64,000 nucleotides of DNA from Planctomycetaceae bacterium (lineage in GTDB: Bacteria > Planctomycetota > Planctomycetia > Planctomycetales > Planctomycetaceae), in NCBI GenBank assembly GCA_002722955.1, contig PBMZ01000115.1, positions 1 through 64,000 on the forward strand. Direction: 5' to 3'. Numbering within the stretch: the first letter of the stretch is position 1; the number at the start of each line of letters is the position of its first letter. Shown one piece after another: positions 334-47,511 of the stretch. A model generated the notes under the pieces. The model made no database searches and had not been told where the DNA came from. It was given only the letters and a program-made list of their open reading frames with translations. The translations under genes and the position numbers were made by a program.

Positions 334-3300
334 ATGGCCAACAGCCAACATGAAGAATTGGTCCATGCTCTGACCTATTTGATGGCAGCGGGAAAACTCG
401 ACGCCGCTGCCGTTTTGCCGACATTAAACAAGCTGGAACAGGATCGAGCACTCGACATCGCCGCTTTGATGTCCTCGCTCAGTGCGATTGGCCTCGATGA
501 ATCTGGCGATCTGATTCGCAGCATTCGCAATGCCAGAAGAAACGAGGCGGCCAAGTACTACAAACAACGATCGCTCGGCACGGTCACTTCCAGCGACTTC
601 GATCTTCTGCTCGGCGACATCCCGCTTGATGGCCCCATGGGCTGGGAGTCCGACGCCGAGATCCTTTCAACCCTCGAATCAACACTTCAGCTAGCCCGCG
701 ATCGACGGTATGCGCAGATCGAGAATGCGAACATCACCGCCGCACATATCGACAAGCAATACCAAGAAAGCCTGGCAAGTGGCCCCTTCGCAAAAGGTGA
801 GATCCCCGATGCAGTGATCTTGCAGTTGATAAAGCTCTTGCACGCACGGCTTGCCAGCTCGGACCGTTTTCAAGCCGGTGATGGCAACGAACTACCACTG
901 AAGTTACACAGCATTGCGCAACGACTGGAAACAGAAATCGCCGCCCGTGATGGGATCAATGCCAACGCCCTCATTCGTCAATTCAATTCTGAATCTGAAG
1001 ACGTCGTGCGCCGTGAGTTGCTCGACTCTTTCTGCACGAATTCAAATCTCGATATCGTTCAAGTGCTGATCGGGATGCATCTCAATGCCGAAGAAAGAGA
1101 TCGGGCGGCACTGATCTTTACGACGAGATTCGGAAGCCTACCGCTCATCGGTTGGAACGCGCGAGTGAACTGGCTGCGCCGTTGTCAGTGCGAGTTCGAA
1201 GAGGACCAACGCAAAGTTCGCCAACTATTGAACGCGGGCCTCGGCGAGTTTTTCTTAATCTGGTATCGAGGCCAAACCGATGCCGACGCCGATCTGATCG
1301 ATGCCGTCGACGCTTGGTGTCAGACAACGGCAACTCCGCTAAACGCCGAACGCTTTGTCGAGCGTTGGGCGGAAGTTGTGCCGCCAACGGAGTGGAATGC
1401 GCTGACCGGTGTCATCATCGAGTTTGCGGACGAGTCAGCCTTGGATGTTGCTGAAGAAGCGCCGGTTTCAGATACGACTCCGGCGGCGGACGTTGTGGTC
1501 TCGGCGCCAGCGCAACCAGCGGCTGTTGCTAGTCCCATCCAAGTTCGTCCTGTTGAACCACAAGGACCGTCGTTGTGGGGTGATCACCTAAAACCGTTCT
1601 TCGCCGAACACTGGTATATGGTTGCTGGTGTTGTCATGGTCTTGGCCGGAAGTTCGCTGTTGGCCTATTACACGTGGGACAAACATTGGTTGGTTCGCTA
1701 TACGGTGATGCCCTCAATCTTGGCTGGCTTCACGGCGGCACTGGCGTGGCTTGGCGGCTGGATCGAAAAACAAGATGAGGAATTCCTGGGCACCGGTGCC
1801 ATCTTGCGAGGCGCCGCGATCTCGTTGTTGCCCATTAACTTTATGGCGGTCGCTTTGTTGTCCAGCGACGAGATGGTGACGGCCAAGTCGCTAGTTGTTC
1901 CCCTGATGGGAGCCGCGTATCTCGGAATCGGCGGCTATGGTTTATGGCGTTGTTGTCGCGCCATGCACGAACCGTTGGGCGGATTACTTGGTGGTGCGCT
2001 GCTATTAATCAATAGCCTCGTGATGTTGGCGCCGCTGGCTCGAACTGTTGCCGACGTCAGTGAACGTGGCCTGTTGACGGTGGTGGGGGCGGGCTTCCAT
2101 ATCGGGTTCTTTGTGCTGGCGGCCGTTGTTATTCGATTTGCCAATGTCGTGTTGACCGAAGAGCTGGCAAAGCAAAAACGCATTCCGTGGTTTGTTGGAG
2201 CCACGCTGTTGGTCACTTTCTTACAGGTTTTTGCGTGGGTGCATGGATTTCTGCAGCATGTCCCGCGCGTCGCCACCTATGCTCCGATGATCATTCTAGC
2301 CGGCGGACTGGTGTTCATAACCGAGTCACGTGCCATCCAATTGCGAGGTGATCGCGAGCAGCACGGTGAAGCATCCTTTATCGGATTCGCCATCGTGCTG
2401 TTGGGAGCCTTGATGGGGGCCACCGATCAGTACTGCCGACTGTTGACGTTCGCGCTGGCTGGTGCGATTTGGCTGTATCAAGCCAATGTCCGCAAACAGA
2501 CGTTGCACGATGGGATTGGTTTGACGTTCTTTGGCATGTCGATGGCCTCGGTCGGTGCACTGGACACTTTCCCGAAAGAGTGGCTCGCAGCCGTTGGGCT
2601 GGCATCAGCGGCCCTATTTGGAGCTGCCGGGCACATTGCGAAACAGTGGTGGAATGAGCGCCTGCGGCAAGCGTGTATTGCCATGCAAGTCGGCGTCTTG
2701 ATGATCACAGCCGTCGTTGCCGCCTTGACTCAATGGCAACTCCAAACATATCCGCTCTACACCGGCGGCTGCCTAGTGGCCATCGCGGCGGCGTTTGCTT
2801 TTCGAGCGATTCGCAATGATCGGCTGAAATGGATGCATGCGGCGATGGCCATCATGGCGTTTTCGCTGATGTATCTTGGCTGTGTCGACATGATCGGTCG
2901 CACGCTGCACGGCAATACGCTGGTCTTCGGACTCTCCATCCTCTCCGTATTCTGGCTCATCGTGAATGCGTTAACCACGACGCCCACGGTTCGCAATTGT
3001 CGCTCGACCGTGTTGTGGGTCTACGGCGCGTTGGCCGTCACAGGTATGGTTCTCCGAGTCGCGCTGGAACGCGGCTTTCCACCGCCGAGCGATTCCTTGC
3101 GGATGTGGATGGATTATAGCGGGCCGTTGATCATGGCAGTCGTGCTGACATTTACCACTTGGTATTCACGCTCGCTGATTCCAGGGGGCATGGCGGCCTT
3201 GATTGTGGTCATCCTGTTTCCCGAACTGAAAGCCAACTTTCGGCAAAGCTTTGAAACGTTGGGTTGGGGTAGCGGAATGGGCAGTGCCCTGAGTTCTCTT

Positions 3301-6300
3301 GGACTGGCAGTGTTGTGTTTTCCGCTTCAGAAGTCGCCGCGGCTCAAAGACCTCAGCGAGGAAGACCGCTTTCTTGGCAAGATTCTGTTCCCACTCCGTC
3401 GCTACGACCACAGTTTGTTCACATGGCCGATTCTGGCTTCGGTTGTCTTCCTGACCGCGAAAACGAACACATGGACGTTCGTAAATAATTACCTCAATTC
3501 TGGAATTGGTTTGAAGGCAAGTGTCGGCTTGACCACAACTGGTATCACCTGGACTTTAGTCGCCATCTATTTCCGACGGCACAGTTTGGCCGTTGTTGGA
3601 ACTTATCTGGGAGTGGCTTGGCTGTTGATCGGGTTGGTTTTCCTAAACAAGAATCTCGCCAGCGAGCCGCACTGGTCAACTCCGATCGTGATTGCTGGCG
3701 TCTTCATGCAAGTCATGCATCTGGCCTACACGAGAGTTTGGGCCAAGCGACATCCTTGGATTGTCAACATTCTAGCTGCACCCACTCATGGATCGCTGGA
3801 ACTTCTGACCTTGGTGAGTTCGGTAGCCTGCGTCGTGATGCTCATCGATGGCGATCGCCTCTCGTCGATCAACGTGCTTTTGGTGTTCTTGGCGGCTGAA
3901 TTGGTTTGGAACGCGATCTCCGCCACGAACACAAAAGGGATTCACAGTCTGACGCTCTTTGTCCTCGGCCTGACTTGCTTACTCTGTGCGACGGCACCGG
4001 GTGACGGTCATTTATTGCGACGCATCTCGATACCTCTCAGCGTCACTCCCGTTGTGTTGATGATGATGGCAATACACGGATGTGCTTTGCTTCTTGAAGC
4101 AGCGGGCGACATTCGCCAACGAGTGGCCGTGTTGGTGAAAACAAACGTGTGGGCTGCGAGCATTGTCATCGGAGTTTTGACTGGCGGCGTGTTTTTCGAT
4201 GCATTCGGCAAGCTTGAGTTTTCCGACTTACAATCTGCTTTGGTCATCATCGCGTTGCTAATGATGGCGGCCACTCATACATCGGCGGCAATTGCGTACG
4301 TTGCCGTTCTTGTCGGCTATGTTCATATCTTGCGAGGTGAATTGTCCGACGTTCCCGGCAATTCACTCGATGTGATCGCCGCGCGAGTGAAGTTGTTGGT
4401 CGAGCCGTTAAGTCTTGCGTGTCTTGGCTTAGCCTCTGCATGCTTTGGTCAGATCGGCCGGCAAGTGGGCGAACGATTTCCGAGACTGCTTCAGGGGCCC
4501 GAGGTTCTTCGAGTTCGCGCGAAAGCTCAAACGCTGCACTTCTTGGCTCCTGCCGCGTTTTGGGCAATCGCGGCAACGGTTTTGCATACGGCGATCCCGG
4601 AGTTCCGACACTCGTCGACTCAGCTGTGGGCTCCGTATTTGGCTGCCGCGACACTGGCGATGATGTACCAGATTCGGGTCAGCGCCTATGTGTCGGTCGT
4701 GCTTTTGACGATTGGAAACTGCCACTTCAGCCGTCTGTTCTTAACGGAAGTGCTTTCCGACTTGGGAATCTCTGACCTGCAAATTGTTTGCCTGGGATTT
4801 GCGATCACGCTGCTTCAAGGTTCGGTGTTGCGTGTCAGCGCTCAACGCCCCAAGTTCTCGGCCTTCGTCAATCAGAACAGCTTATGGCTGGCCGCGTCCG
4901 TCCTCGCGCTGCTGACAGCGAATTACTTGACGCATCGAAATCTGGCAGAAATCCCATTGGCGAGATTCATCATTTCGGGCTCGATGGCGTACCTTGCCGG
5001 ACTCTACTTCCGTCGCGCGGCTCGGAATCCGTCGGCAGGCGAAGAAGGCTACACCGAGCTTTGCGAAGGCTTGTACCATTTTGGTCTGACGGTCGCCATT
5101 TGGTGTGCAGTGCTGGCGATTCCAGTGATGCGCACGCCAGCGATTGCCTTGTACACGCTGGGTTTGCCCGTCGTTTACTTTTACTTCAGGGCCGAGGATG
5201 GCATTCGACGCGGAATGGACTTTGGTCGCTTGTACAGAAACTCGGCAACTGTTCTGTCGTTTCTGTTGTTGGCATCTTATGTCTTCCGAGTCGCTTTGCA
5301 GATGGTTCTGTTTCCCGACGAACCGCGCTTAGCAACCGACTATTATCACTGGAACGCACCCTTCGTCATTTCGCTGTCGGCAGTTTTGTTGAGACTTCAT
5401 GGTCTGGGCGGCACGCCTTGGCTGGCGTTTTATGGAGGCCTGGCGTTGGTGACGGGAACGTACTTCAGCGTGACTTGGTTACCGAAGCTGAGTCCATTCG
5501 AGCATCCGTTGCATTCGGCATGGGTTGCAATCGGATTGGCTCACTTCTGGACTCTTGTTAGTCATCAACGATCGCCGCTTCGGACTGGCATTCAACGCAT
5601 GGCCGTCATCGACGGGCAACAATGGTTTTCGCTAAGACGAACGTGGGGCGTTTGTCTGTTGGTCTTTACGCAACTCAACGTCTTGTGGGCCATGAGCGAT
5701 TGGCAATCGCAATCGCTGCAAATGGCACCGTTACTGTTAGGGGCCGCAAGCATTCTGATTCACCAAGGAGTCATCCGCCGATCGCCGACGTATTTCTTGA
5801 TTGCCGGGCTTCAAATCATTGCGGCTTTGCACGCGGACTTCCTGATCGAGAGCTACTTAGATAAGGATCATGTCGTCTGGGCCATCCTTGGGCTTTGGCT
5901 CGCTGCGTGGATCGCACATGCGGTCTTGCGGCTCGAGGCCACCGGCTTCGGTGTGCTTGCGGGTGTGATGTTCCTGCTGACGGGGACTCACATTCTGTAT
6001 CACGGGCCGGCTTCGAAAGTCGGACTGACTGCAATGCTGTTCGCTGGCGTGTTGGCTGCGGCAACTCCTCGAGACAAGCAACTGCCAAGCAGTGGCGAGG
6101 AAAAGGCTTCCTCGCTGGGCGTCTTATTGATACCGATGTGGCTTGCCTTCTTCAGCCAAGCGGACCTTGAGTTGATCGATACCATCATCGCGGTTTGGCC
6201 TTGGATGAATCTGGTTGCCGTTGGATACGCGATCGCCGTGTTTGGCAAGCTGTTTCAATCTCACCTTTATTCAGAATACGATCAGCTGGAGCGGACTCGG

Positions 6301-7368
6301 CCGAGATTATTTGATCAAACGCTAGCGATGTTGGGGCAAGTCGGTCAGCAGCTTCATTCAGTCGCGCTGTGGATCACGTTTACGGTGACGGCTTTCATTC
6401 AAGTCATTCACTATGGGGAAGCATTCACGCAGCACGAGTTGGCACTGGTGCTGATCATTTATGCGGCTCTGTCCATCGGCTGGTTCTACGAAGGCCAGCT
6501 ACGACGAAACATGCCGCCATATGTCTTGTTGCAATTGTCGATTCTGGGCTTCTTCACGGTCATCCGCCGTCAATTGATGCTCACAACCGATTTCTGGAAC
6601 GCGTACTACGATGTGTGGGCCAGCTTAATCGTTTCGTTTGCTCTGACGGGTTGCAAGTCGTTCTTGGATACTCGCGAGAAAGCGGCGCGAATTCCTCTTT
6701 TGGGCACCCTGCTGTTGCTGCCCGTGGTTGCTTTGCTGTGGGTGCTGAAGAACAACCTCGGCACAAATACCGCCTTGATGGTGGTGGGATTACACAGCCT
6801 GATGTTTTCGTTCTTAGGCAAGGATGATCGCGAGTCACCTTACAACATCATTGCGACTTTTGGTTTTATTGCGTTTGTCTTGCTTACTTTCTGGAGCAAA
6901 CTGAATCTTCGAGTCGTCCACGCTTACACAATTCCCGTTGGCATCGGCATTCTAGTGCTGCTCCAAATGTTTCGTCGACACATCGCTACGGACGCTCGCA
7001 ACCGCATTCGTTTATTGACTCTGTTGGTGATGATCGGCAGCAGTGGTTACTACGCGCTTTCTGACAGTGCCATCGAGTTCCATCTCACGCTAATCGTCAT
7101 GTGTCTGGCGGCGATGGGTTTAGGTAGCTTTTTCCGCATCCGATTGTATTTGATCCTAGGCTTCGCCGGACTGATGGTTGATGTCACATCGATCGTGTTT
7201 CGCGTCCTGCGAGAGATGCCGCGGAGTGCTCAGATGACGGCGATCGGAAGTCTTGTGCTGCTGATAGGCATCGGCTTGGTATTCGGCGCGATCTATTACA
7301 AGACGAATCAAGAACGGATTAACGAGCGTTTGAATCGCTTGCGCAGCGGTTATGGTGATTGGGAATAA
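334..7368 (+). CDS. Giant polytopic membrane protein, 2344 aa
   Basis: I do not recognise a functional family for the whole protein. Residues 1 to about 390 are soluble, helical and charged, followed by an Ala/Pro/Val-rich linker (about 365-405) and then, from about residue 427 (WYMVAGVVMVLAGSSLL) to about 2320, an almost unbroken series of hydrophobic segments, dozens of predicted membrane helices. The tail is short and charged (RINERLNRLRSGYGDWE). The overall look, a soluble head followed by very many helices, recalls large uncharacterised membrane proteins of the DUF2339/DUF2157 type, but this is only a resemblance. No Walker, transporter or catalytic motif was seen. The ATG at 334 follows a weak GGAAG. 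It is a single uninterrupted frame with no neighbour close enough to form an operon, and a strong palindrome follows at 7396-7438. Confidence 0.85.
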   Translation: MANSQHEELVHALTYLMAAGKLDAAAVLPTLNKLEQDRALDIAALMSSLSAIGLDESGDLIRSIRNARRNEAAKYYKQRSLGTVTSSDFDLLLGDIPLDGPMGWESDAEILSTLESTLQLARDRRYAQIENANITAAHIDKQYQESLASGPFAKGEIPDAVILQLIKLLHARLASSDRFQAGDGNELPLKLHSIAQRLETEIAARDGINANALIRQFNSESEDVVRRELLDSFCTNSNLDIVQVLIGMHLNAEERDRAALIFTTRFGSLPLIGWNARVNWLRRCQCEFEEDQRKVRQLLNAGLGEFFLIWYRGQTDADADLIDAVDAWCQTTATPLNAERFVERWAEVVPPTEWNALTGVIIEFADESALDVAEEAPVSDTTPAADVVVSAPAQPAAVASPIQVRPVEPQGPSLWGDHLKPFFAEHWYMVAGVVMVLAGSSLLAYYTWDKHWLVRYTVMPSILAGFTAALAWLGGWIEKQDEEFLGTGAILRGAAISLLPINFMAVALLSSDEMVTAKSLVVPLMGAAYLGIGGYGLWRCCRAMHEPLGGLLGGALLLINSLVMLAPLARTVADVSERGLLTVVGAGFHIGFFVLAAVVIRFANVVLTEELAKQKRIPWFVGATLLVTFLQVFAWVHGFLQHVPRVATYAPMIILAGGLVFITESRAIQLRGDREQHGEASFIGFAIVLLGALMGATDQYCRLLTFALAGAIWLYQANVRKQTLHDGIGLTFFGMSMASVGALDTFPKEWLAAVGLASAALFGAAGHIAKQWWNERLRQACIAMQVGVLMITAVVAALTQWQLQTYPLYTGGCLVAIAAAFAFRAIRNDRLKWMHAAMAIMAFSLMYLGCVDMIGRTLHGNTLVFGLSILSVFWLIVNALTTTPTVRNCRSTVLWVYGALAVTGMVLRVALERGFPPPSDSLRMWMDYSGPLIMAVVLTFTTWYSRSLIPGGMAALIVVILFPELKANFRQSFETLGWGSGMGSALSSLGLAVLCFPLQKSPRLKDLSEEDRFLGKILFPLRRYDHSLFTWPILASVVFLTAKTNTWTFVNNYLNSGIGLKASVGLTTTGITWTLVAIYFRRHSLAVVGTYLGVAWLLIGLVFLNKNLASEPHWSTPIVIAGVFMQVMHLAYTRVWAKRHPWIVNILAAPTHGSLELLTLVSSVACVVMLIDGDRLSSINVLLVFLAAELVWNAISATNTKGIHSLTLFVLGLTCLLCATAPGDGHLLRRISIPLSVTPVVLMMMAIHGCALLLEAAGDIRQRVAVLVKTNVWAASIVIGVLTGGVFFDAFGKLEFSDLQSALVIIALLMMAATHTSAAIAYVAVLVGYVHILRGELSDVPGNSLDVIAARVKLLVEPLSLACLGLASACFGQIGRQVGERFPRLLQGPEVLRVRAKAQTLHFLAPAAFWAIAATVLHTAIPEFRHSSTQLWAPYLAAATLAMMYQIRVSAYVSVVLLTIGNCHFSRLFLTEVLSDLGISDLQIVCLGFAITLLQGSVLRVSAQRPKFSAFVNQNSLWLAASVLALLTANYLTHRNLAEIPLARFIISGSMAYLAGLYFRRAARNPSAGEEGYTELCEGLYHFGLTVAIWCAVLAIPVMRTPAIALYTLGLPVVYFYFRAEDGIRRGMDFGRLYRNSATVLSFLLLASYVFRVALQMVLFPDEPRLATDYYHWNAPFVISLSAVLLRLHGLGGTPWLAFYGGLALVTGTYFSVTWLPKLSPFEHPLHSAWVAIGLAHFWTLVSHQRSPLRTGIQRMAVIDGQQWFSLRRTWGVCLLVFTQLNVLWAMSDWQSQSLQMAPLLLGAASILIHQGVIRRSPTYFLIAGLQIIAALHADFLIESYLDKDHVVWAILGLWLAAWIAHAVLRLEATGFGVLAGVMFLLTGTHILYHGPASKVGLTAMLFAGVLAAATPRDKQLPSSGEEKASSLGVLLIPMWLAFFSQADLELIDTIIAVWPWMNLVAVGYAIAVFGKLFQSHLYSEYDQLERTRPRLFDQTLAMLGQVGQQLHSVALWITFTVTAFIQVIHYGEAFTQHELALVLIIYAALSIGWFYEGQLRRNMPPYVLLQLSILGFFTVIRRQLMLTTDFWNAYYDVWASLIVSFALTGCKSFLDTREKAARIPLLGTLLLLPVVALLWVLKNNLGTNTALMVVGLHSLMFSFLGKDDRESPYNIIATFGFIAFVLLTFWSKLNLRVVHAYTIPVGIGILVLLQMFRRHIATDARNRIRLLTLLVMIGSSGYYALSDSAIEFHLTLIVMCLAAMGLGSFFRIRLYLILGFAGLMVDVTSIVFRVLREMPRSAQMTAIGSLVLLIGIGLVFGAIYYKTNQERINERLNRLRSGYGDWE

Positions 7369-9338: not shown

Positions 9339-10520
9339 ATGGCTGACAGTCACAAGCAACTTGACGACGAAGCTTCCGAAGAGGAGTTGACGACGGAGGA
9401 CGTTGAAGTTCTGCCGCCCAAAACTAAGTCGGATGAGGACAGCTCAGACGAGGAACAGCAACCCGCCGAGATTACCTACGAGAACGCTCCCACAACCCTT
9501 GTCGAATCACCTTTACCAGAAAGTGATACGTCGGTTGAACCGGTTTCGGAAACGCTTCTCGATCGTCCCACAGAGACGATTGTCGAGTTTCCGATTCCAC
9601 AAACGATTCTGGAGGAACCACAAAGCAGCGACGAGCCGATCGAACAGTCGTTGGTTGAAGAGCCAACGGAGCCTCAAGCGAGTCCATCCAATGACGTTCT
9701 CACGGAGACGATTGTCGAGATGCCAGCTCCTACCGAGGAAGAATTGCAACAGGCTCTCGTAGAGAACTCAGCAGGGCAGTTCACTGAAACGCTTGTCGAG
9801 TTTCCGATTCCAAAGGTTGACGATTCACCATCGCCGCCCATCGAGGAAACACTGGTCGAGGAACCCACGGAAACCGTGACGGAGCTTCCGCTTGAGGACA
9901 TTCCCACGCTCACCGAGGTTCCACTTCAAGATGTCGAAACTCTCGTTGAAGCAACGCCAGCCGACTTGGAAACAATCGCGGAAGATTCATTGGATCGGCC
10001 GACGCAACACGGTTTAGCTCACGATGATCAAGAAACGATCACGGAAGCCCCAGCCGCTGATTCGACTGCACCTAATTATGCTGATCAATCTGATGTCGAG
10101 ACGATCGTCGAAGATCCGCAACAGCCCGATCTAAGCACAACGTCGATCACCGACGAACGCGACATCCCACGAATTGTTCAAGAGGCGGCGCGTTTCATGC
10201 CGCCCACGGCCCCGATCCGAGAAGACTTTCACATACCGTCCGAGATTGCGGAAGGCGACACTGACGACGACCTCGACAACGATTCTGACGTAATTCCGGC
10301 TCCAACTTTTCACGACGAAGTCCAAAGTCAGCAAGACGTCGATCCTGACGCGACCATTGTCAACCAGGATCTTGTCGACGAATTGGCCGCAAAAGAGAAC
10401 ACGGTGAGGCTTCCTGAGTCGAAGTCGCCAGCGGAAGCGAATGTTTCGCCGCGGAAACCGAAACCGACCGAGCCTAAGGATAAGCCACAAGTGGCGGCAC
10501 CGGGATCTACTGAGTCACAA
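9339..10520 (+). repeat. Coding region for ET(I/L)VE peptide repeats
   Basis: The first 390 or so codons of the kinase encode about ten variants of T-E-T-(I/L)-V-E-x-P, for example PTETIVEFPIPQ, LTETIVEMPAPT, FTETLVEFPIPK and DVETIVEDPQQP. Spacing is irregular (about 15-40 residues) and Thr is usually followed by a hydrophobic residue and Val-Glu. The repeat could offer multiple phosphorylation or docking sites for the kinase itself or for an FHA-type partner; this is inference. Confidence 0.8.
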
Positions 10521-13500
10521 ACAGCGAAGAAGCCTCAAAACGCCAGTCCCGATCGACGATATGTGTTGGAATCCAGTTTTGGCTTCGGGGGAATGGGCCG
10601 CATTTACAAGGCTCGGGACGAGCGGATCAATCGAGAAGTCGCCTACAAGGTATTGTTGCCTCAGGCCTTGGAACGCCAAGGCTTGGTTGATCGCTTTATT
10701 GATGAAGCCCAGATCACCGGGCAACTCGAGCATCCCGGAATCGTTCCGATTTATGATTTGGGGCAACAAGGCGATGGCACACCGTTCTATGCCATGAAGA
10801 TGGTTCAGGGTGATACTCTGGCAAAAGCCATCGCCGACTATCATCACCTTTCGCCGGATCACGATCAGCGTGGCATTCAGTTTCAGCGGCTGTTACGGAA
10901 TTTCATCGACGTTTGCAATGCGATTGCCTATTCGCATGAACGCGGCGTGTTGCACTGCGATTTGAAACCTCAAAACATCATGGTCGGCGATTTTGGCGAG
11001 ACCATTGTTTTGGATTGGGGTTTGGCCAAGGTCCTCGATCCCGAGCAAGTAGAAACTGATGGTGCGGAAACTCGCGACGACGACACGATCAACGTGCCCG
11101 AAGACGCTGCGTTCGAAAATTCCGTCAGCAAACGCTCGACCAGTTCGGTCTCCCGAAGCCGCACTTCAGACAGTGCGACCGAGATGGGGTCGGTCATGGG
11201 CACGCCCGAGTTCATGCCGCCGGAACAAGCTCGCGGCGCGCTCTCGGAATTGGATCCGCGCAGCGACATTTATTCGCTCGGAGCGATCCTTTATCAGATC
11301 TTGACTGGATATCCTCCCATTCCCAGGGATAAGTCCGTTAAAGATAAGCTGCAACTGGTCATTGGCGGAATGATCAAAGAGCCGCGTCAATTTGACCAGA
11401 AGATTCCGAAACCGATCGAAGCGGTTTGCATGAAGGCCTTGGCCATTCGCAAACACAACCGCTACCAAACGGCGAAGGCATTGGCTGCCGACATCGAAGC
11501 CTTTCTGGCCGACGAACCCGTCACCGCGATGATCGAACCATTCGTGACAAAGGCAAAACGCTGGGCCAAGCGAAACCGCACGATCGTGACAGCAACAGCA
11601 TCGACGGCGATCGTCGCGGCGGTATTGTTGACCAGTTGGAATATTATGGAATCGGCGCGGATCGACGGCGTCGTCAGCGAAGTCGAAAGCTTGCTTGAGG
11701 AAAGCGGTCAATCCATTGAAGCGGGAGAATTCCAATCAGCCCGCGACACTTTGCAACAAGTCAAAGCCATTCTCGACATCAATCAAGAACCGCAATTGGA
11801 GATGTCCCGTCGGCTTTATTCCGATCGATACAAACTGGTCGACGAGACACTGGTCATCGAAGCACACGCTGATGAACTGATAGCCGCCGCCGACGAGAGT
11901 CTTGACGAAGATGACTTCGACGAAGCCGTTCGTCAATTCGAAGCAGCCATCAACAAGCTTCGAGAACAACCTCGCCTAAAAGACAGGATCAAAGAAACCG
12001 AACGCAAGATTGCCGACGCTCAAACATCCTGGGACCAGGCAAGACAGCGGGAAGTGGCTCTTGAGCGATACGACCGGTTTATCGAGCTTGCCGATCAAGC
12101 ACGCTTTCATGGGACGCGGTTTACAGGAGGTGCGGCGCAGGAACACGCAGGCAACATTTACGAACAAGCACTCAGGGCGCTGCAGATCTTCGAACTCGAT
12201 CAGCAAGAAAACTTGTTTGTCGACAACAAGTATTTCACCTCCAGCGAAGCACGGCGCATTCGCGAGCTATCGTTCGAGTTGATGTTGATCCTTGCGGAAT
12301 CGCAAACCGAACTCAGCGACACACTTCCCGAACAGGAACAGCAAGACGCTCGGCAAGCGGCACTCGCTTGGGTCGATAAGGCGGCTCAGTTGGGCATCAA
12401 ATCTCGAGCGTTGTATCTGCAGAGGGCTTTTGTGTTGGATAAGCTCGGTGATGTCGACGGCAGCAAAGAGGCCCGCGAATTAGCCAGTTCATTAAGCCCC
12501 AGTTCGGCCATCGATCACTTTCTACTGGGTGAAATCGATCGCAAAGCTGGTCGATTCGAGAATGCGTTGCAATCGTATTCGGCCGTGGTGAAGTTGGACA
12601 ATGACCACTTTTGGGCTCACAACATGAGCGGTGTTTGCAATCTGCAACTGGGGAAACTGGACACCGCGCGTCAATGCTACGAAATGTGTAGCGGTCTACG
12701 TCCGAAGTTCTCTTGGACCTATCTAACATTGGCAATCGCGGAAGCCTTTGATGGTAACTATGAATCTGCATTGAAACATTTTAAGACCGCCGAAGCCTAC
12801 GACTCAGACTCCTACAACGTGTTCATGATGCGAGGAGTCGTGCTTTCGAATCGGTTGGGTGACGAGATTGCGGACCTCGAGACGCAGGAGTCCAACGGTG
12901 TCATCACCGACGACCTTCAACGCGATTATGATGAGGCCATTCGTGATTTCAAGAAAGCCGCTAGCCTCGACCCAACAGAATATGAACCTCACTTCAATTT
13001 GGGAGAAACGCATCGTCGAATGGCCGATTGGATTGCCAAAGGAGACGGAGGCGACATCGCCGCAGAATTGTATCTCGCGAAGGCGCGGGTTTCACTGAAT
13101 CACGCGATCGCGCTGGCTCCGCAAGTTGCAAAGCCACACGAAATTCGCGCGCTCGTCTATTGGCTGCAGAAGGAGTATGCCCTGGCCATTGAAGACAGCC
13201 GTCAAGCCATTCTCAAGTATCGTGATGCTGCCAGCAAAGCTCGCTGCTATAAAATCATCGGCGGAGTTTCTTTTGATCAGGCCGAGTTGCTTAGTGCTTT
13301 GGAAGCGTACGACCAATCCACCGACCTGAACCCCAATGATGCTGAAGTTCAGGCGGCTCGAGCTGAAGTCAAATTGAAGCTCGGACAGTATGTTGAAGCC
13401 GTACAAGGGTTTTCTCGATACCTCGCATTGAATCCCATCGAATTCTTGGCGAAAGAAGCCAAGGCCGAGGTCATCGAAGCACGGGCGCAGGCACTTGCCA

Positions 13501-14063
13501 GGCTCGGTCAGTTTCAAACGGCGATGCATGACTACAATCGTGCGCTGGAGCTTAAAGGCAACAACCCCGACGTCATGCTGCGGCGGGCATGGTCTTACCT
13601 GAATAACTTTCAAAAACTGGCACAAATCGATTTCGAAAACGCTACGAAACTGCAACCTAAAAATCCCGAGACTTGGATCGGGCTCGCCAGTGTCTATGCC
13701 ATGCAAGGTCACTTTAATGAAGCGATCGCCAACGCTAACAAGGCTGAAGAACTCGTAGACGCCATCCCTGCCGACGCGCAAGGAAACTTTGTCTGGTCGC
13801 AATACTTCAACTTGGCGACGATCTATTCACAACTGATCGCTCGAGCCCGCATTGATTCGAGACTCTCGGTGGAACAGCGGCAAACTATCCAAACACAGTC
13901 GTTGGCAAAGGCCGTCGAGCTATTGAAGACGTCTCTCGGCAAGACCAAGAATCGGATGCTGGTGATCGCGTCTTTCAACAACGACCCGGCCTTCGAAGTC
14001 ATACGAAACGCACCGGAGATTCGGCTGTTGGTTAAGCCTGTATCAACCCCTGAGAACAACTGA
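9339..14063 (+). CDS. Giant membrane-anchored Ser/Thr protein kinase with TPRs
   Basis: 1574 residues in four parts. Residues 1 to about 390 are acidic and disordered, built of degenerate ET(I/L)VE repeats. A Hanks-type kinase domain runs from about 407 (glycine loop FGFGGMG) to 690, with VAYKV lysine near 437, catalytic loop HCDLKPQN at 539-546 and DWG at 559-561. The usual Arg of HRD is Cys, so this is a non-RD kinase, and DFG is DWG, as in many planctomycete kinases. A membrane helix lies at about 748-770. The rest is helical, with coiled coil and then tetratricopeptide-like repeats from about 1030 to 1500, predicted outside the cytoplasm. The gene sits 29 bp after the hydrolase gene and 27 bp before the sialidase-like gene. 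Kinase activity is likely but not certain because of the Cys. Confidence 0.9.
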   Translation: MADSHKQLDDEASEEELTTEDVEVLPPKTKSDEDSSDEEQQPAEITYENAPTTLVESPLPESDTSVEPVSETLLDRPTETIVEFPIPQTILEEPQSSDEPIEQSLVEEPTEPQASPSNDVLTETIVEMPAPTEEELQQALVENSAGQFTETLVEFPIPKVDDSPSPPIEETLVEEPTETVTELPLEDIPTLTEVPLQDVETLVEATPADLETIAEDSLDRPTQHGLAHDDQETITEAPAADSTAPNYADQSDVETIVEDPQQPDLSTTSITDERDIPRIVQEAARFMPPTAPIREDFHIPSEIAEGDTDDDLDNDSDVIPAPTFHDEVQSQQDVDPDATIVNQDLVDELAAKENTVRLPESKSPAEANVSPRKPKPTEPKDKPQVAAPGSTESQTAKKPQNASPDRRYVLESSFGFGGMGRIYKARDERINREVAYKVLLPQALERQGLVDRFIDEAQITGQLEHPGIVPIYDLGQQGDGTPFYAMKMVQGDTLAKAIADYHHLSPDHDQRGIQFQRLLRNFIDVCNAIAYSHERGVLHCDLKPQNIMVGDFGETIVLDWGLAKVLDPEQVETDGAETRDDDTINVPEDAAFENSVSKRSTSSVSRSRTSDSATEMGSVMGTPEFMPPEQARGALSELDPRSDIYSLGAILYQILTGYPPIPRDKSVKDKLQLVIGGMIKEPRQFDQKIPKPIEAVCMKALAIRKHNRYQTAKALAADIEAFLADEPVTAMIEPFVTKAKRWAKRNRTIVTATASTAIVAAVLLTSWNIMESARIDGVVSEVESLLEESGQSIEAGEFQSARDTLQQVKAILDINQEPQLEMSRRLYSDRYKLVDETLVIEAHADELIAAADESLDEDDFDEAVRQFEAAINKLREQPRLKDRIKETERKIADAQTSWDQARQREVALERYDRFIELADQARFHGTRFTGGAAQEHAGNIYEQALRALQIFELDQQENLFVDNKYFTSSEARRIRELSFELMLILAESQTELSDTLPEQEQQDARQAALAWVDKAAQLGIKSRALYLQRAFVLDKLGDVDGSKEARELASSLSPSSAIDHFLLGEIDRKAGRFENALQSYSAVVKLDNDHFWAHNMSGVCNLQLGKLDTARQCYEMCSGLRPKFSWTYLTLAIAEAFDGNYESALKHFKTAEAYDSDSYNVFMMRGVVLSNRLGDEIADLETQESNGVITDDLQRDYDEAIRDFKKAASLDPTEYEPHFNLGETHRRMADWIAKGDGGDIAAELYLAKARVSLNHAIALAPQVAKPHEIRALVYWLQKEYALAIEDSRQAILKYRDAASKARCYKIIGGVSFDQAELLSALEAYDQSTDLNPNDAEVQAARAEVKLKLGQYVEAVQGFSRYLALNPIEFLAKEAKAEVIEARAQALARLGQFQTAMHDYNRALELKGNNPDVMLRRAWSYLNNFQKLAQIDFENATKLQPKNPETWIGLASVYAMQGHFNEAIANANKAEELVDAIPADAQGNFVWSQYFNLATIYSQLIARARIDSRLSVEQRQTIQTQSLAKAVELLKTSLGKTKNRMLVIASFNNDPAFEVIRNAPEIRLLVKPVSTPENN

Positions 14064-43900: not shown

Positions 43901-45709
43901 CTAAATTGCCATCCGTTTCAAACCGAAGACACGAGCTAGCACAAGTACGATCATGGCCGCTGCGATGATGATCAACGATGCGGAGACGGCACCTTCTAAA
44001 TGGCCCGTGCTGAATTCAAGAAACACGGTTGTGGGCAAGACCTCGGTTCGTAACCGAGTCGCTCCGGAAAAGATCAGGATGGGGCCGAACTCGCCCAAAG
44101 ATCGCGCCCACGCAAGCGTGCCGGCGGCAAGCAGTCCTCGACGACATTGAGGAAAGACAACGAACCAAAATGCTTGCCCCCGGTTACAGCCAAGGGTTAA
44201 TGCGACATGTTCGTACCGCTTATGAATCTGATCAAAGGTGACTCGCATCGTTCTGACAGCGAAGGCGCAGGCTACCATGAACTGAGCCAAAATCACGCTG
44301 GGGATCTCGTAGGTTACTGGGATCGTTAACGTGGGCTTCCAATTCTCGATGCGTTTTTCCTGACGGCGGCGAACGTTGAGGTTGATTGTCCACAACGTTG
44401 GCTCGCGCTGATATGCGGTTTCCAATGACGTCACTTCTTCCCGCAACGCGGTCACTTGTTGTTGCTGGCGCTTCAATTCGCTTTGGACTTCGTTCAGACT
44501 GCCGCCGTCTTTGGCCAACTGTTTTAAGGTATCGATCTCGTGTTGTAGATCATCGATCTCGGACTGATTGGACAGCATGCCCGAGTGGACTTGTTCAAGC
44601 TGCCGTTCGATGGCCGGCATCTTGTCCAAGGCTTCTTTCGAATTCCACTGAGATCGCAGTTCGTTCAATGATTGGCGGACGGCTTCCAAGTCGTCACGGA
44701 CTTTGGCGCGTTGGCGGTTGAAATTAAACAGCCGTTCTAACTTAGCAACTTCTTGTTCTTGCTCGCTCAGTTGTTCTTTGAGCTTATCGATCTTTGCCTG
44801 TTTCTTCTTCGGCTGCGCTGTGTAAGTCAAATCGGCGCCGCTGGGAAAATCGTTATCTGTGTCCTCGGCAAGAGGCGCAGTGACGCGATATTCACCGGTC
44901 TCGCGACCGTCGTCGCCAAGAATGGGTTTGACGGAGTAATCATTGAGGTCAGCCTCAGAGTCGCTCGACTCCCATAAGGACAAGAATTCACGCTGTGTTC
45001 CGGTAAACTCGAACTCGGCCCGGTAGACGTCCGAGCCACTCGTGATCGGACTTTGGTCGCAGTACGTCAAACTGGTGTTGGCAACCGCGCTATCGCCAGG
45101 CATTTGAGCCCACGCAGGAAGGCTCGGAAGCAAGTGTGAATGGTTGAGTAGCGAAAAGAAGATCAGCAAGCTAATCGAGACGCCCGTGATTTGAACTCGA
45201 TTCAGTTTCTGCTTTGGCAAGAAAAACGCAGCAGCGCCAATTGCCGAAAACAGCGCGAACCACAGCATGGCAATCAAATGATCGCCCAGCCACTGTTCGA
45301 ACGCGTGAATCGCTGACTCAATCCCCAAAGCGGCCGAACTGCTGAAGAGAATCAACAGGCAGAGCCCGACGACTAACGGAGGCAGCACGATTGGAATGTC
45401 GAGGACTGCGTCCACGAATGACTTGCCATAGAACTGGTAGCGAGACATCAGGTAGCCAATTGGCACAGCGACCCAAAGCGATAAGATCGTCGACAACGCG
45501 CAGGACAAAAGACTGAGCCGGAGTGAATAACGAACTTCGGGTCGAGCCAGGAATGAGAAGAACTCGCCGACCGTCGTATAGGTCGACTCGGCAACCAACA
45601 TGGCCACGATCATGGCGATGTAGAAGCCGCCGATTAGGAAGAAGCACAAATAGAAGGGCACATCCGATTTCGCCTTGAATTCATTGTTTGACGAAATCGG
45701 GTCGCTCAT
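43901..45709 (-). CDS. ModB-like ABC permease with large coiled-coil insertion
   Basis: 602 residues. The ends match a molybdate/tungstate permease (normally about 225 residues): helices at about 19-41, 63-89 and 100-125 (DIPIVLPPLVVGLCLLILF), then, after a break, TIPVTYEIPSVILAQFMVACAF (about 462-483), the EAA-type loop EHVALTLGCNRGQAFWFVVFP (500-520), and SLGEFGPILIFSG with a last helix at 573-595. Between residues about 127 and 462 lie two extra helices (145-165 and 172-192), a beta-rich segment (about 205-300) and a long coiled coil (about 300-435). Frame and composition are uninterrupted, so it is not a cloning artefact of two genes. The double ModA-like gene lies 195 bp upstream on the same strand. 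Confidence 0.85.
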   Translation of the reverse strand: MSDPISSNNEFKAKSDVPFYLCFFLIGGFYIAMIVAMLVAESTYTTVGEFFSFLARPEVRYSLRLSLLSCALSTILSLWVAVPIGYLMSRYQFYGKSFVDAVLDIPIVLPPLVVGLCLLILFSSSAALGIESAIHAFEQWLGDHLIAMLWFALFSAIGAAAFFLPKQKLNRVQITGVSISLLIFFSLLNHSHLLPSLPAWAQMPGDSAVANTSLTYCDQSPITSGSDVYRAEFEFTGTQREFLSLWESSDSEADLNDYSVKPILGDDGRETGEYRVTAPLAEDTDNDFPSGADLTYTAQPKKKQAKIDKLKEQLSEQEQEVAKLERLFNFNRQRAKVRDDLEAVRQSLNELRSQWNSKEALDKMPAIERQLEQVHSGMLSNQSEIDDLQHEIDTLKQLAKDGGSLNEVQSELKRQQQQVTALREEVTSLETAYQREPTLWTINLNVRRRQEKRIENWKPTLTIPVTYEIPSVILAQFMVACAFAVRTMRVTFDQIHKRYEHVALTLGCNRGQAFWFVVFPQCRRGLLAAGTLAWARSLGEFGPILIFSGATRLRTEVLPTTVFLEFSTGHLEGAVSASLIIIAAAMIVLVLARVFGLKRMAI

Positions 45710-45741: not shown

Positions 45742-45844
45742 ATCGCAACCCGAAGCGTGAGCGAGGGACGCTCACACGTCTTCGCAAGCGATAAGTCTTA
45801 TTGCGAACGTGTGAGCGTCCCTCGCTCACGCTTCGGGTTGCGAT
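45742..45844. repeat. 38-bp perfect inverted repeat, GTAACCCGACG-like family
   Basis: Arms 45742-45779 and 45807-45844 are exact complements; the core GCGTGAGCGAGGGACGCTCAC also folds on itself, so each arm is itself a palindrome of the 7396/27994 family. The loop is 27 bp. It lies between the binding-protein gene and the permease gene and could attenuate transcription between them. Confidence 0.92.
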
Positions 45845-45903: not shown

Positions 45904-47511
45904 TCAGTTTGCCGACGGCAACGGAACTCGCCAACCGAAGCCATGTGATAAGAAACGCTCCCGCGACTCAGCGGAAGTGATCGCTTCGACCAAGCGTTGG
46001 GCCAAGTATGGATGCTTGGATGCTTTGTTCACAGCGATCGGTTGCACTGCTTTCGGATTGCCTGTGCGGATCGGGATAATCTCGAGCTTTTCGGAAATCG
46101 ATGCCACGTTGGCTTTGTAAACGATGGCCGCGTCTAGCCCGTTGGCGAGAACTTGATTGACCAGCATATCGGCGGTCGGCGTTTGTACTCGGACGTTGCC
46201 TTGAACGGCTTCATAGAGGTTTGAGTCGTCAAGCTTGATTTGGAGAAAGAGCTTCTTCGTCAGCTCACCGAGTGCACTTTGTTCGGCATTGGCGACACCG
46301 ACTTTGAGGTCAGCTTTCGTCAGTTCTTTGACGTCCTTGACCCTCATCGGATTTCCCTTTTGGACAATGACGACCATGTCGGTGTCCGAGATAGTCAGCG
46401 GCGGCCGAAAGTCTGATTGGACGTCGTCCATAAAGGAAGCGTCGCAGGCAAAGTACGCGTCGGGTGGCTGATTTTCATTGCCTTTGATCATGGCGACTAA
46501 AATTCCACAGCCGTTATAAATCGTTTTGACGCTGACACCCTCACGTTGTTTGAACGCTTTGACTGTGTCTTCAATGGCCAGTCGATTGACGCCGCCGCTA
46601 TAGAGAACCAGCTCGGGCGATTCGGACCATTCATCGCCACCGATGTTTTCGATTCCGAATTGAGTGAAGTATTGTTGGCCTTTGGAAGGCGCCGACATAA
46701 AGCGGCAAAATCGCAGAGCCGCAACGGATTCTTTGCACCACTTGAGCACTCCGACGGTGACTTGTTTGGTAGCCGCATCGAACTCTGGCACATGGATCAT
46801 CGTCAACTCGTCACTGTGTAGGTTGACTTGAGAGTCCCAAATCACGGCCGCATCGACGGATTTCAATTTCACGGCACTTGTCAGTTCATTGACGGTTGGC
46901 TTGAAGACCTTGCAGGCAGTTGAGATTTCTTCCCACTTGCCCATCTTGGTCAGGATCTTCTTCGTCGCCTTTCCCACAGAGGCCGCGTCGGGATTGGCCA
47001 AGCCGAAGTTCACTTCCGGCTTGAGCAAATCGTCGAGGCCCTTGATTCCTTTGTCGTTGTCTTTGTGGATCGCAATGACTGGTCGAAGTCGGCCAACAGG
47101 CACAGCTTCGTGTAACAACTTCTTTTGGCGAGCGATTTCGATGTAACTGGTGTCGGCGGCCAAATACAAATCGCCTGTTTCGGCAATTTGCAAGTTATTC
47201 AGCAGCGTCCCTGATCCGCCGTATTGCAATTGTATCTCGACGCCAAACTCTTCTTCGTATGCCTTCGCCGCGGCCTCGACAGGCAGCTTGATGCCGGCGG
47301 CGCAGTACATGACCAGCTTTTTGGTGGAAGTCGAATCTGTTGGCTGAACGGGGGCATCCGGTTTCGGATTGTCTGTCCCGTTACCAGCAGGTTGCACTTC
47401 AGTTGGTGCATCGCCGCCAGAGGAAAGTAAGAAGATCAGTCCCGCCACTGCGACTAGCGAGACGACAGCTACCAAGAGCCCATTGTTTGCACTGCCAAGA
47501 CGTCGACTCAT
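45904..47511 (-). CDS. Membrane-anchored binding protein with two ModA-like domains
   Basis: 535 residues. An N-terminal hydrophobic anchor (LLVAVVSLVAVAGLIFLLSS, 12-31) and a Pro/Thr linker lead to two tandem periplasmic-binding domains of the ModA/WtpA type. Domain one, about 66-295, has LVMYCAAGIKLPVEAAAKAY, QLQYGGSGTLL and GDLYLAADTSYIE. Domain two, about 300-530, has LVLYSGGVNRLAIEDTVKAF, IYNGCGILV and DAYFACDASFMDD. The two have the same order of motifs, so the protein arose by duplication. Normal ModA is about 250 residues with one domain. It is the first gene of the probable transporter unit with the ModB-like permease downstream. Confidence 0.88.
   Translation of the reverse strand: MSRRLGSANNGLLVAVVSLVAVAGLIFLLSSGGDAPTEVQPAGNGTDNPKPDAPVQPTDSTSTKKLVMYCAAGIKLPVEAAAKAYEEEFGVEIQLQYGGSGTLLNNLQIAETGDLYLAADTSYIEIARQKKLLHEAVPVGRLRPVIAIHKDNDKGIKGLDDLLKPEVNFGLANPDAASVGKATKKILTKMGKWEEISTACKVFKPTVNELTSAVKLKSVDAAVIWDSQVNLHSDELTMIHVPEFDAATKQVTVGVLKWCKESVAALRFCRFMSAPSKGQQYFTQFGIENIGGDEWSESPELVLYSGGVNRLAIEDTVKAFKQREGVSVKTIYNGCGILVAMIKGNENQPPDAYFACDASFMDDVQSDFRPPLTISDTDMVVIVQKGNPMRVKDVKELTKADLKVGVANAEQSALGELTKKLFLQIKLDDSNLYEAVQGNVRVQTPTADMLVNQVLANGLDAAIVYKANVASISEKLEIIPIRTGNPKAVQPIAVNKASKHPYLAQRLVEAITSAESRERFLSHGFGWRVPLPSAN

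Follow-up and report, generated by a model that had tools for sequence, protein, structure and literature searches.

Two genera of Planctomycetaceae carry a membrane hairpin, a predicted periplasmic domain, and a long coiled coil in one loop of a ModB-type ABC importer permease

Analysis of a 64,000-nucleotide stretch of Planctomycetaceae bacterium DNA (positions 1 to 64,000 of contig PBMZ01000115.1, referred to below as the window) revealed a permease gene in which the two halves of a ModB-type protein are separated by an insert of ~320 residues. The insert comprises an extra transmembrane hairpin, a predicted beta/alpha domain, and a coiled coil. It is real, inherited, and restricted to a lineage: a second carrier, Planctomycetaceae bacterium SI072_bin183 (JABISG010000059.1), belongs to another genus and was recovered in an independent metagenome assembly. 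By analogy with other importers, we tentatively propose, with a probability of about 0.4, that the insert may form an arm acting as an accessory device that docks or holds the membrane-tethered tandem binding protein of the transporter.

The permease gene, recognized from its open reading frame (ORF) and from Pfam and NCBIfam matches, is intact, occupies positions 43901 to 45709 on the minus strand, and encodes 602 residues; the plus-strand frame over the same positions contains many stops. The N-terminal part (residues 1 to 123, TM1 to TM3; positions 45341 to 45709, minus strand) was delimited by NCBIfam models, hydrophobicity, and alignment with ModB, and the C-terminal part (residues 464 to 602, containing TM4, the EAA-type loop, TM5, and TM6; positions 43904 to 44320, minus strand) by Pfam, NCBIfam, and the same alignment. 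Hydrophobicity placed TM1 at residues 21 to 39, TM2 at 67 to 85, TM3 at 105 to 123, and TM4 at 467 to 485, the EAA-type loop following TM4. The Pfam model BPD_transp_1 matched residues 465 to 591 only, with a score (38.4 bits) above its cutoff (26.4 bits), and the permease of the second carrier scored 48.2 bits. NCBIfam models of molybdate/sulfate permeases matched two separate stretches of the protein. Likewise, the solved ModB chains 3d31_C and 2onk_C aligned to residues 17 to 129 and 31 to 133, respectively, and then to residues 468 to 591 and 468 to 594. The halves that are split here adjoin each other in both chains and keep their order, indicating that residues ~14 to 123 and ~464 to 600 are the ends of one ModB-type ABC importer permease and that the middle is extra, as the preliminary description of this DNA had proposed from the neighborhood of the two parts in ModB. 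The expected structural resemblance to ModB was recovered by Foldseek with the permease part of the model (3d31_C, E = 3.7e-4), over 126 columns only. Residues of the EAA loop and core that are conserved in 49 orthologues are intact in the window permease.

The same description had assigned the protein to molybdate or tungstate transport. The ModB type was upheld, and the substrate was not: the window permease scored 143.2 bits against the molybdate permease equivalog model TIGR02141, below the cutoff of 182.6 bits. An ordinary Gimesia orthologue likewise fell below this cutoff (144.5 bits), indicating that the insert is not the reason for the low score. Since the curated ModB cutoff is missed by both proteins, a molybdate or tungstate substrate is not established. 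A search of the window with Rfam gave no match and hence no riboswitch naming the substrate. The gene is best explained as encoding the permease component of a type I ABC importer for oxyanions of the molybdate/tungstate/sulfate group.

The insert lies in the TM3-TM4 loop, where the preliminary description had located it at about residues 127 to 462. The location was correct, and the boundaries were revised to about residues 142 and 463, because residues 124 to 141 (positions 45287 to 45340, minus strand), which form the amphipathic start of the loop, still align with a short helix of ordinary loops. The two extra membrane helices, the beta-rich domain, and the coiled coil of more than 130 residues anticipated from the sequence were all recovered. 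The extra transmembrane hairpin (residues 142 to 191; positions 45137 to 45286, minus strand) consists of helices at residues 145 to 163 and 172 to 190, identified by hydrophobicity and in the model, joined by a positively charged turn. It is followed by the beta/alpha domain (residues 192 to 302, strands 1 to 5; positions 44804 to 45136, minus strand), predicted to be periplasmic and delineated by two models and by homology to the second carrier. The coiled coil (residues 303 to 435; positions 44405 to 44803, minus strand), ~130 residues in length, was identified by heptads and in both models: the heptad hydrophobicity of residues 300 to 440 was 0.57, above all of 200 shuffled sequences (mean, 0.27; maximum, 0.43). 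A returning strand (residues 438 to 447) and a linker to TM4, seen in both models, complete the insert (residues 436 to 463; positions 44321 to 44404, minus strand).

The AlphaFold2 model of the window permease (mean pLDDT, 72; pTM, 0.49) was built from a 49-row alignment in which the insert is present in only two rows. It contains strands at residues 228 to 237, 259 to 264, 270 to 279, and 293 to 300, helices at 303 to 435, and a strand at 438 to 447, with pLDDT values mostly of 35 to 70 in the sheet region and of 60 to 89 in the coil. A separate AlphaFold2 run with the periplasmic part of the second carrier alone predicted strands at 27 to 30 and 38 to 49, a helix at 51 to 57, strands at 69 to 76, 82 to 92, and 104 to 112, helices at 116 to 276, and a strand at 279 to 290. 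Modeled in this way without the permease, the insert thus kept the same order of elements, at a lower confidence (pLDDT, 58; mostly 40 to 55 in the distal coil). The low to moderate confidence of the insert models is due to the availability of only two insert sequences among those searchable. Since both models place the helices between strands, they agree in predicting that the coil leaves and re-enters one small domain between two of its strands rather than forming a tail.

The membrane side of this domain was approached through charge. In this permease family the EAA loop is cytoplasmic, which puts the TM3-TM4 loop in the periplasm. In both carriers the turn of the extra hairpin contains three or four Lys or Arg residues and no Asp or Glu, and the stretch that follows the hairpin (276 or 303 residues) is net negative. 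This charge bias supports a periplasmic position for the sheet domain and the coil, which most likely face the same side as the docking site of the binding protein. Among the roles suggested initially for the coil, docking of a cytoplasmic regulator is therefore disfavored; of the others, reaching toward the binding protein is preferred, with support that is only indirect.

The binding protein is encoded directly upstream of the permease on the same strand (positions 45904 to 47511, minus strand). It comprises 535 residues, with an N-terminal membrane anchor and two SBP_bac_11 (ModA-type) domains detected with Pfam and NCBIfam models, and scored 89.2 bits against the modA model TIGR01256 (cutoff, 62.5 bits). 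All members of this transporter family, including those from Planctomycetota, Verrucomicrobiota, Omnitrophota, and other groups, have a membrane-anchored tandem binding protein, which was for this reason rejected as a specific companion of the insert. Its tether measures 37 residues in one carrier and 49 in the other, the latter being the longest of 81 systems. In 64 systems with short loops the median is 14 residues and the longest tethers are of 31 and 21 residues. Gimesia tethers range from 16 to 42 residues and reach 38 to 42 in some systems with short, coil-free loops. Loop and tether lengths were correlated over the 81 systems (Spearman coefficient, 0.52), nearly all of this signal coming from one clade, and not significantly within the long-loop systems only (rho = 0.41, P = 0.11). 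A long tether would be expected of a binding protein positioned on top of, or above, a taller structure; in this sense the lengths are suggestive only.

The mechanism that we propose is only moderately supported. The membrane hairpin would pin the module beside the permease, and the small beta/alpha domain would sit near the membrane surface. From this domain the coiled coil would project into the periplasm before returning to it. The single permease gene and the comparison with ModB suggest that the permease acts as a homodimer, in which case each transporter should have two arms around the mouth of the channel. These arms may serve as docking sites, holders, or spacers that position the tandem binding protein above the channel, a role that the P2 domain of MalF, to which they are unrelated, plays for maltose-binding protein. 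The carrier transporter would then provide a compact model in which to study how a tandem binding protein on a tether alternates at the channel.

Alternatively, the coil might act as an envelope anchor or adaptor, crossing the periplasm as a hairpin to contact peptidoglycan or an outer-membrane protein and thereby fixing the importer at defined sites or coupling it to an outer-membrane channel. The predicted plan, in which a coiled coil extends from a compact beta domain, resembles that of EmrA/MacA-type adaptors, and EmrA (4tko) was the top-ranked Foldseek match of the insert model. However, neither this match (E = 0.075, probability of 0.20) nor any other obtained with this low-confidence query model was significant. 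If the coil is a single hairpin, arms of ~65 residues would by arithmetic reach about 100 Å, but we infer both the simple hairpin and this reach, because the distal coil is poorly predicted and its topology is uncertain in both models. In addition, no gene for an outer-membrane partner was recognized beside either carrier operon. We consider this role doubtful. Still less probable, and in our opinion a long shot, is that the insert forms a trans-periplasmic stalk tying the importer to another envelope layer or lifting the tandem binding protein far from the membrane. If so, this importer would have a hairpin of the adaptor type as part of its own permease, an arrangement otherwise known from exporters.

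A second alternative, which we also regard as rather unlikely, is that the coils pair permease subunits or neighboring transporters, stabilizing or clustering them, perhaps because their operon no longer encodes the ATPase. Coiled coils commonly oligomerize, and the expected homodimer would bring two of them close together. The ATPase gene is adjacent to that of the permease in nearly all other informative loci, including L042, L081, L110, L125, L130, and L137, in which the called start of the ORF runs upstream. In both carriers the orthologue lies on another contig (L165:9316-9966 and L166:8876-9595, both on the minus strand). The two unlinked genes encode proteins that are 63% and 59% identical to the ATPase of Gimesia and stand in differing neighborhoods, between which no shared neighbor was recognized. 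However, a few noncarriers (L060, L061, L150, and perhaps L041) also have no adjacent ATPase gene, and the association between the unlinked ATPase and the insert is confounded by kinship.

The interval between the binding-protein and permease genes contains a palindrome with perfect arms of 38 nucleotides and a loop of 27 nucleotides (positions 45742 to 45844). The core of the arm occurs 17 times in the genome and 0 times in a reversed control, which identifies the palindrome as REP/MITE-like. REP elements are present between malE and malF of E. coli. By analogy, the palindrome could determine how much binding protein is made relative to permease. Elsewhere in the window, a 2,344-residue ORF (positions 334 to 7368, plus strand) had no Pfam match at an E value of 1e-4, and positions 9339 to 14063 (plus strand) encode a 1,574-residue protein in which a serine/threonine-kinase-type domain is combined with a long array of TPRs.

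A third alternative is that the insert performs no specific task and reflects a loop that accepts extra sequence throughout the clade. Loop lengths were compared in 99 aligned rows, two of them cut by contig ends. In ordinary orthologues from Planctomycetota, Verrucomicrobiota, Omnitrophota, and other groups, the loop has 12 to 22 residues (76 of the 99 rows); in two rows it has 28 to 31. It reaches 53 to 122 residues in Gimesia (genus code g58), in which it is partly of low complexity, above all in the longest examples, and has no extra membrane helices. In the carriers it has 344 and 373 residues. No similarity was visible between the Gimesia loops and the insert. In three Gimesia-type loci (L044, L053, and L080) the loop is of low complexity, rich in Gln, Glu, and Asp, and 80 to 122 residues long, apparently as the result of a separate expansion at the same site. 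A tree built from the permease ends and the binding protein grouped the window, SI072_bin183, L079, and Gimesia in one clade (support, 99/98). A joint clade of the two carriers was not rejected (AU test, P = 0.36), the tree leaving their closest kinship unsettled. Since L079 belongs to the same clade and has no insert, the insert may have been lost or may have had separate histories. With loops of 12 to 31, 53 to 122, and 344 to 373 residues around one clade, the origin of a domain of this kind would be traceable.

The two inserts themselves argue against mere tolerance. The permease of SI072_bin183 has 642 residues, with the insert at the identical site and the gene for the tandem binding protein adjoining. 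Its insert is 28% identical to that of the window (E = 2.3e-20); the ends of the two permeases are 67% (residues 14 to 123) and 80% (C-terminal part) identical. Thus, the insert has changed far more rapidly than the permease, as a loop without a task might, but an insert that is simply tolerated should have decayed or been lost over such divergence. Instead, the hairpin, the sheet domain, and the coil are homologous and kept in the same order in both genera, and the motifs DQSP, TGT, and PSxPxW are common to both. The homology does not depend on coiled-coil composition: the hairpin plus sheet part scored 158 against a mean of 29 for shuffled sequences (z = 30), and the sheet part alone gave a z value of 21.6. 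The coil alone gave a z value of only 5.3, and its score did not surpass that of its best shuffled sequence. Mismatches between the two inserts are commonest at third codon positions (0.58, 0.47, and 0.69 for positions 1, 2, and 3), as expected of a protein sequence under selection. In view of this constraint at the protein level, we find an insert without function unlikely.

An assembly chimera can be dismissed even though the draft genome of the window is fragmented into 220 contigs and has a completeness of 79%, since the same insert, in frame, at the same site, and with strong homology, is present in the assembly of another genus and the GC3 of the insert (0.62) matches that of the core (0.66). 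A convincing insert was found in 2 of 170 genomes of the family (58 genera), counting that of the window. Among 398 genomes of the class and 392 of the phylum there was none, the weak matches falling nearly all in coiled-coil columns. The preliminary description had expected other planctomycetes to have the same insert at the same place; this holds for one further genus, and the insert was rejected as a general feature of planctomycetes. A scan of the contigs of GTDB genomes found no relative with the window protein alone as the query; with the alignment as the query, SI072_bin183 was the only carrier among the 80 permease loci kept. The insert was not found in viral contigs, nor was a convincing free-standing donor of the transmembrane and sheet parts found in 398 genomes, the best weak match (genome G365) having no ORF resembling the insert.

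Docking or holding of the tandem binding protein is the reading that we prefer, and it may be set against known systems. As initially suspected, no named family has this shape: Pfam gave no match for the insert, its profile matched nothing in the PDB but generic coiled-coil proteins (no E value below 0.01), and a search of a limited body of literature returned no description of a permease of the ModB type into which a membrane hairpin, a sheet domain, and a coiled coil are built. The transporter shares with ModB (PDB 2onk and 3d31; TIGR02141 and TIGR01581) the layout of its transmembrane helices, the EAA-type loop, an adjacent ModA-type (SBP_bac_11) protein, and an ATPase orthologue in the genome. 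It differs in the splitting of the halves by the insert and in scores below curated cutoffs, the latter being shared with the Gimesia orthologue. Wzz polysaccharide co-polymerases have a membrane-anchored alpha/beta domain and long helices that project into the periplasm. Neither Pfam nor Foldseek matched the insert to this Wzz/PCP family, for which a structure has been described (PMC7809406). The EmrA, MacA, and HlyD adaptors have a similar overall plan, with a beta domain and a coiled-coil hairpin excursion, but they are separate proteins serving exporters, and the insert has no Pfam match and no significant Foldseek match to them. In GlnPQ, according to an excerpt of PMC11331510, two tandem binding domains are held at the membrane near the channel. 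These domains are covalently linked to the translocator, whereas here the binding protein is a separate anchored protein and the putative arm belongs to the permease. MalF of the E. coli maltose importer, like the protein described here, is a permease of a type I importer and has a large folded domain within one of its loops, periplasmic in the present case according to the charge bias. The P2 domain lies between TM3 and TM4 of MalF, in a different loop of the shared core than the insert, and lacks both a membrane hairpin and a coiled coil. No match to P2 was obtained with the insert profile or the insert model in the PDB, and the relation is one of analogy only, not of homology. The P2 loop is reported to interact with its binding protein at all stages of the cycle (Daus 2009 and Grote 2009, cited in PMC3328499). 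If the arm holds the binding protein in a comparable manner, it would show that a new docking device can arise in an importer on another loop than the one used by MalF.
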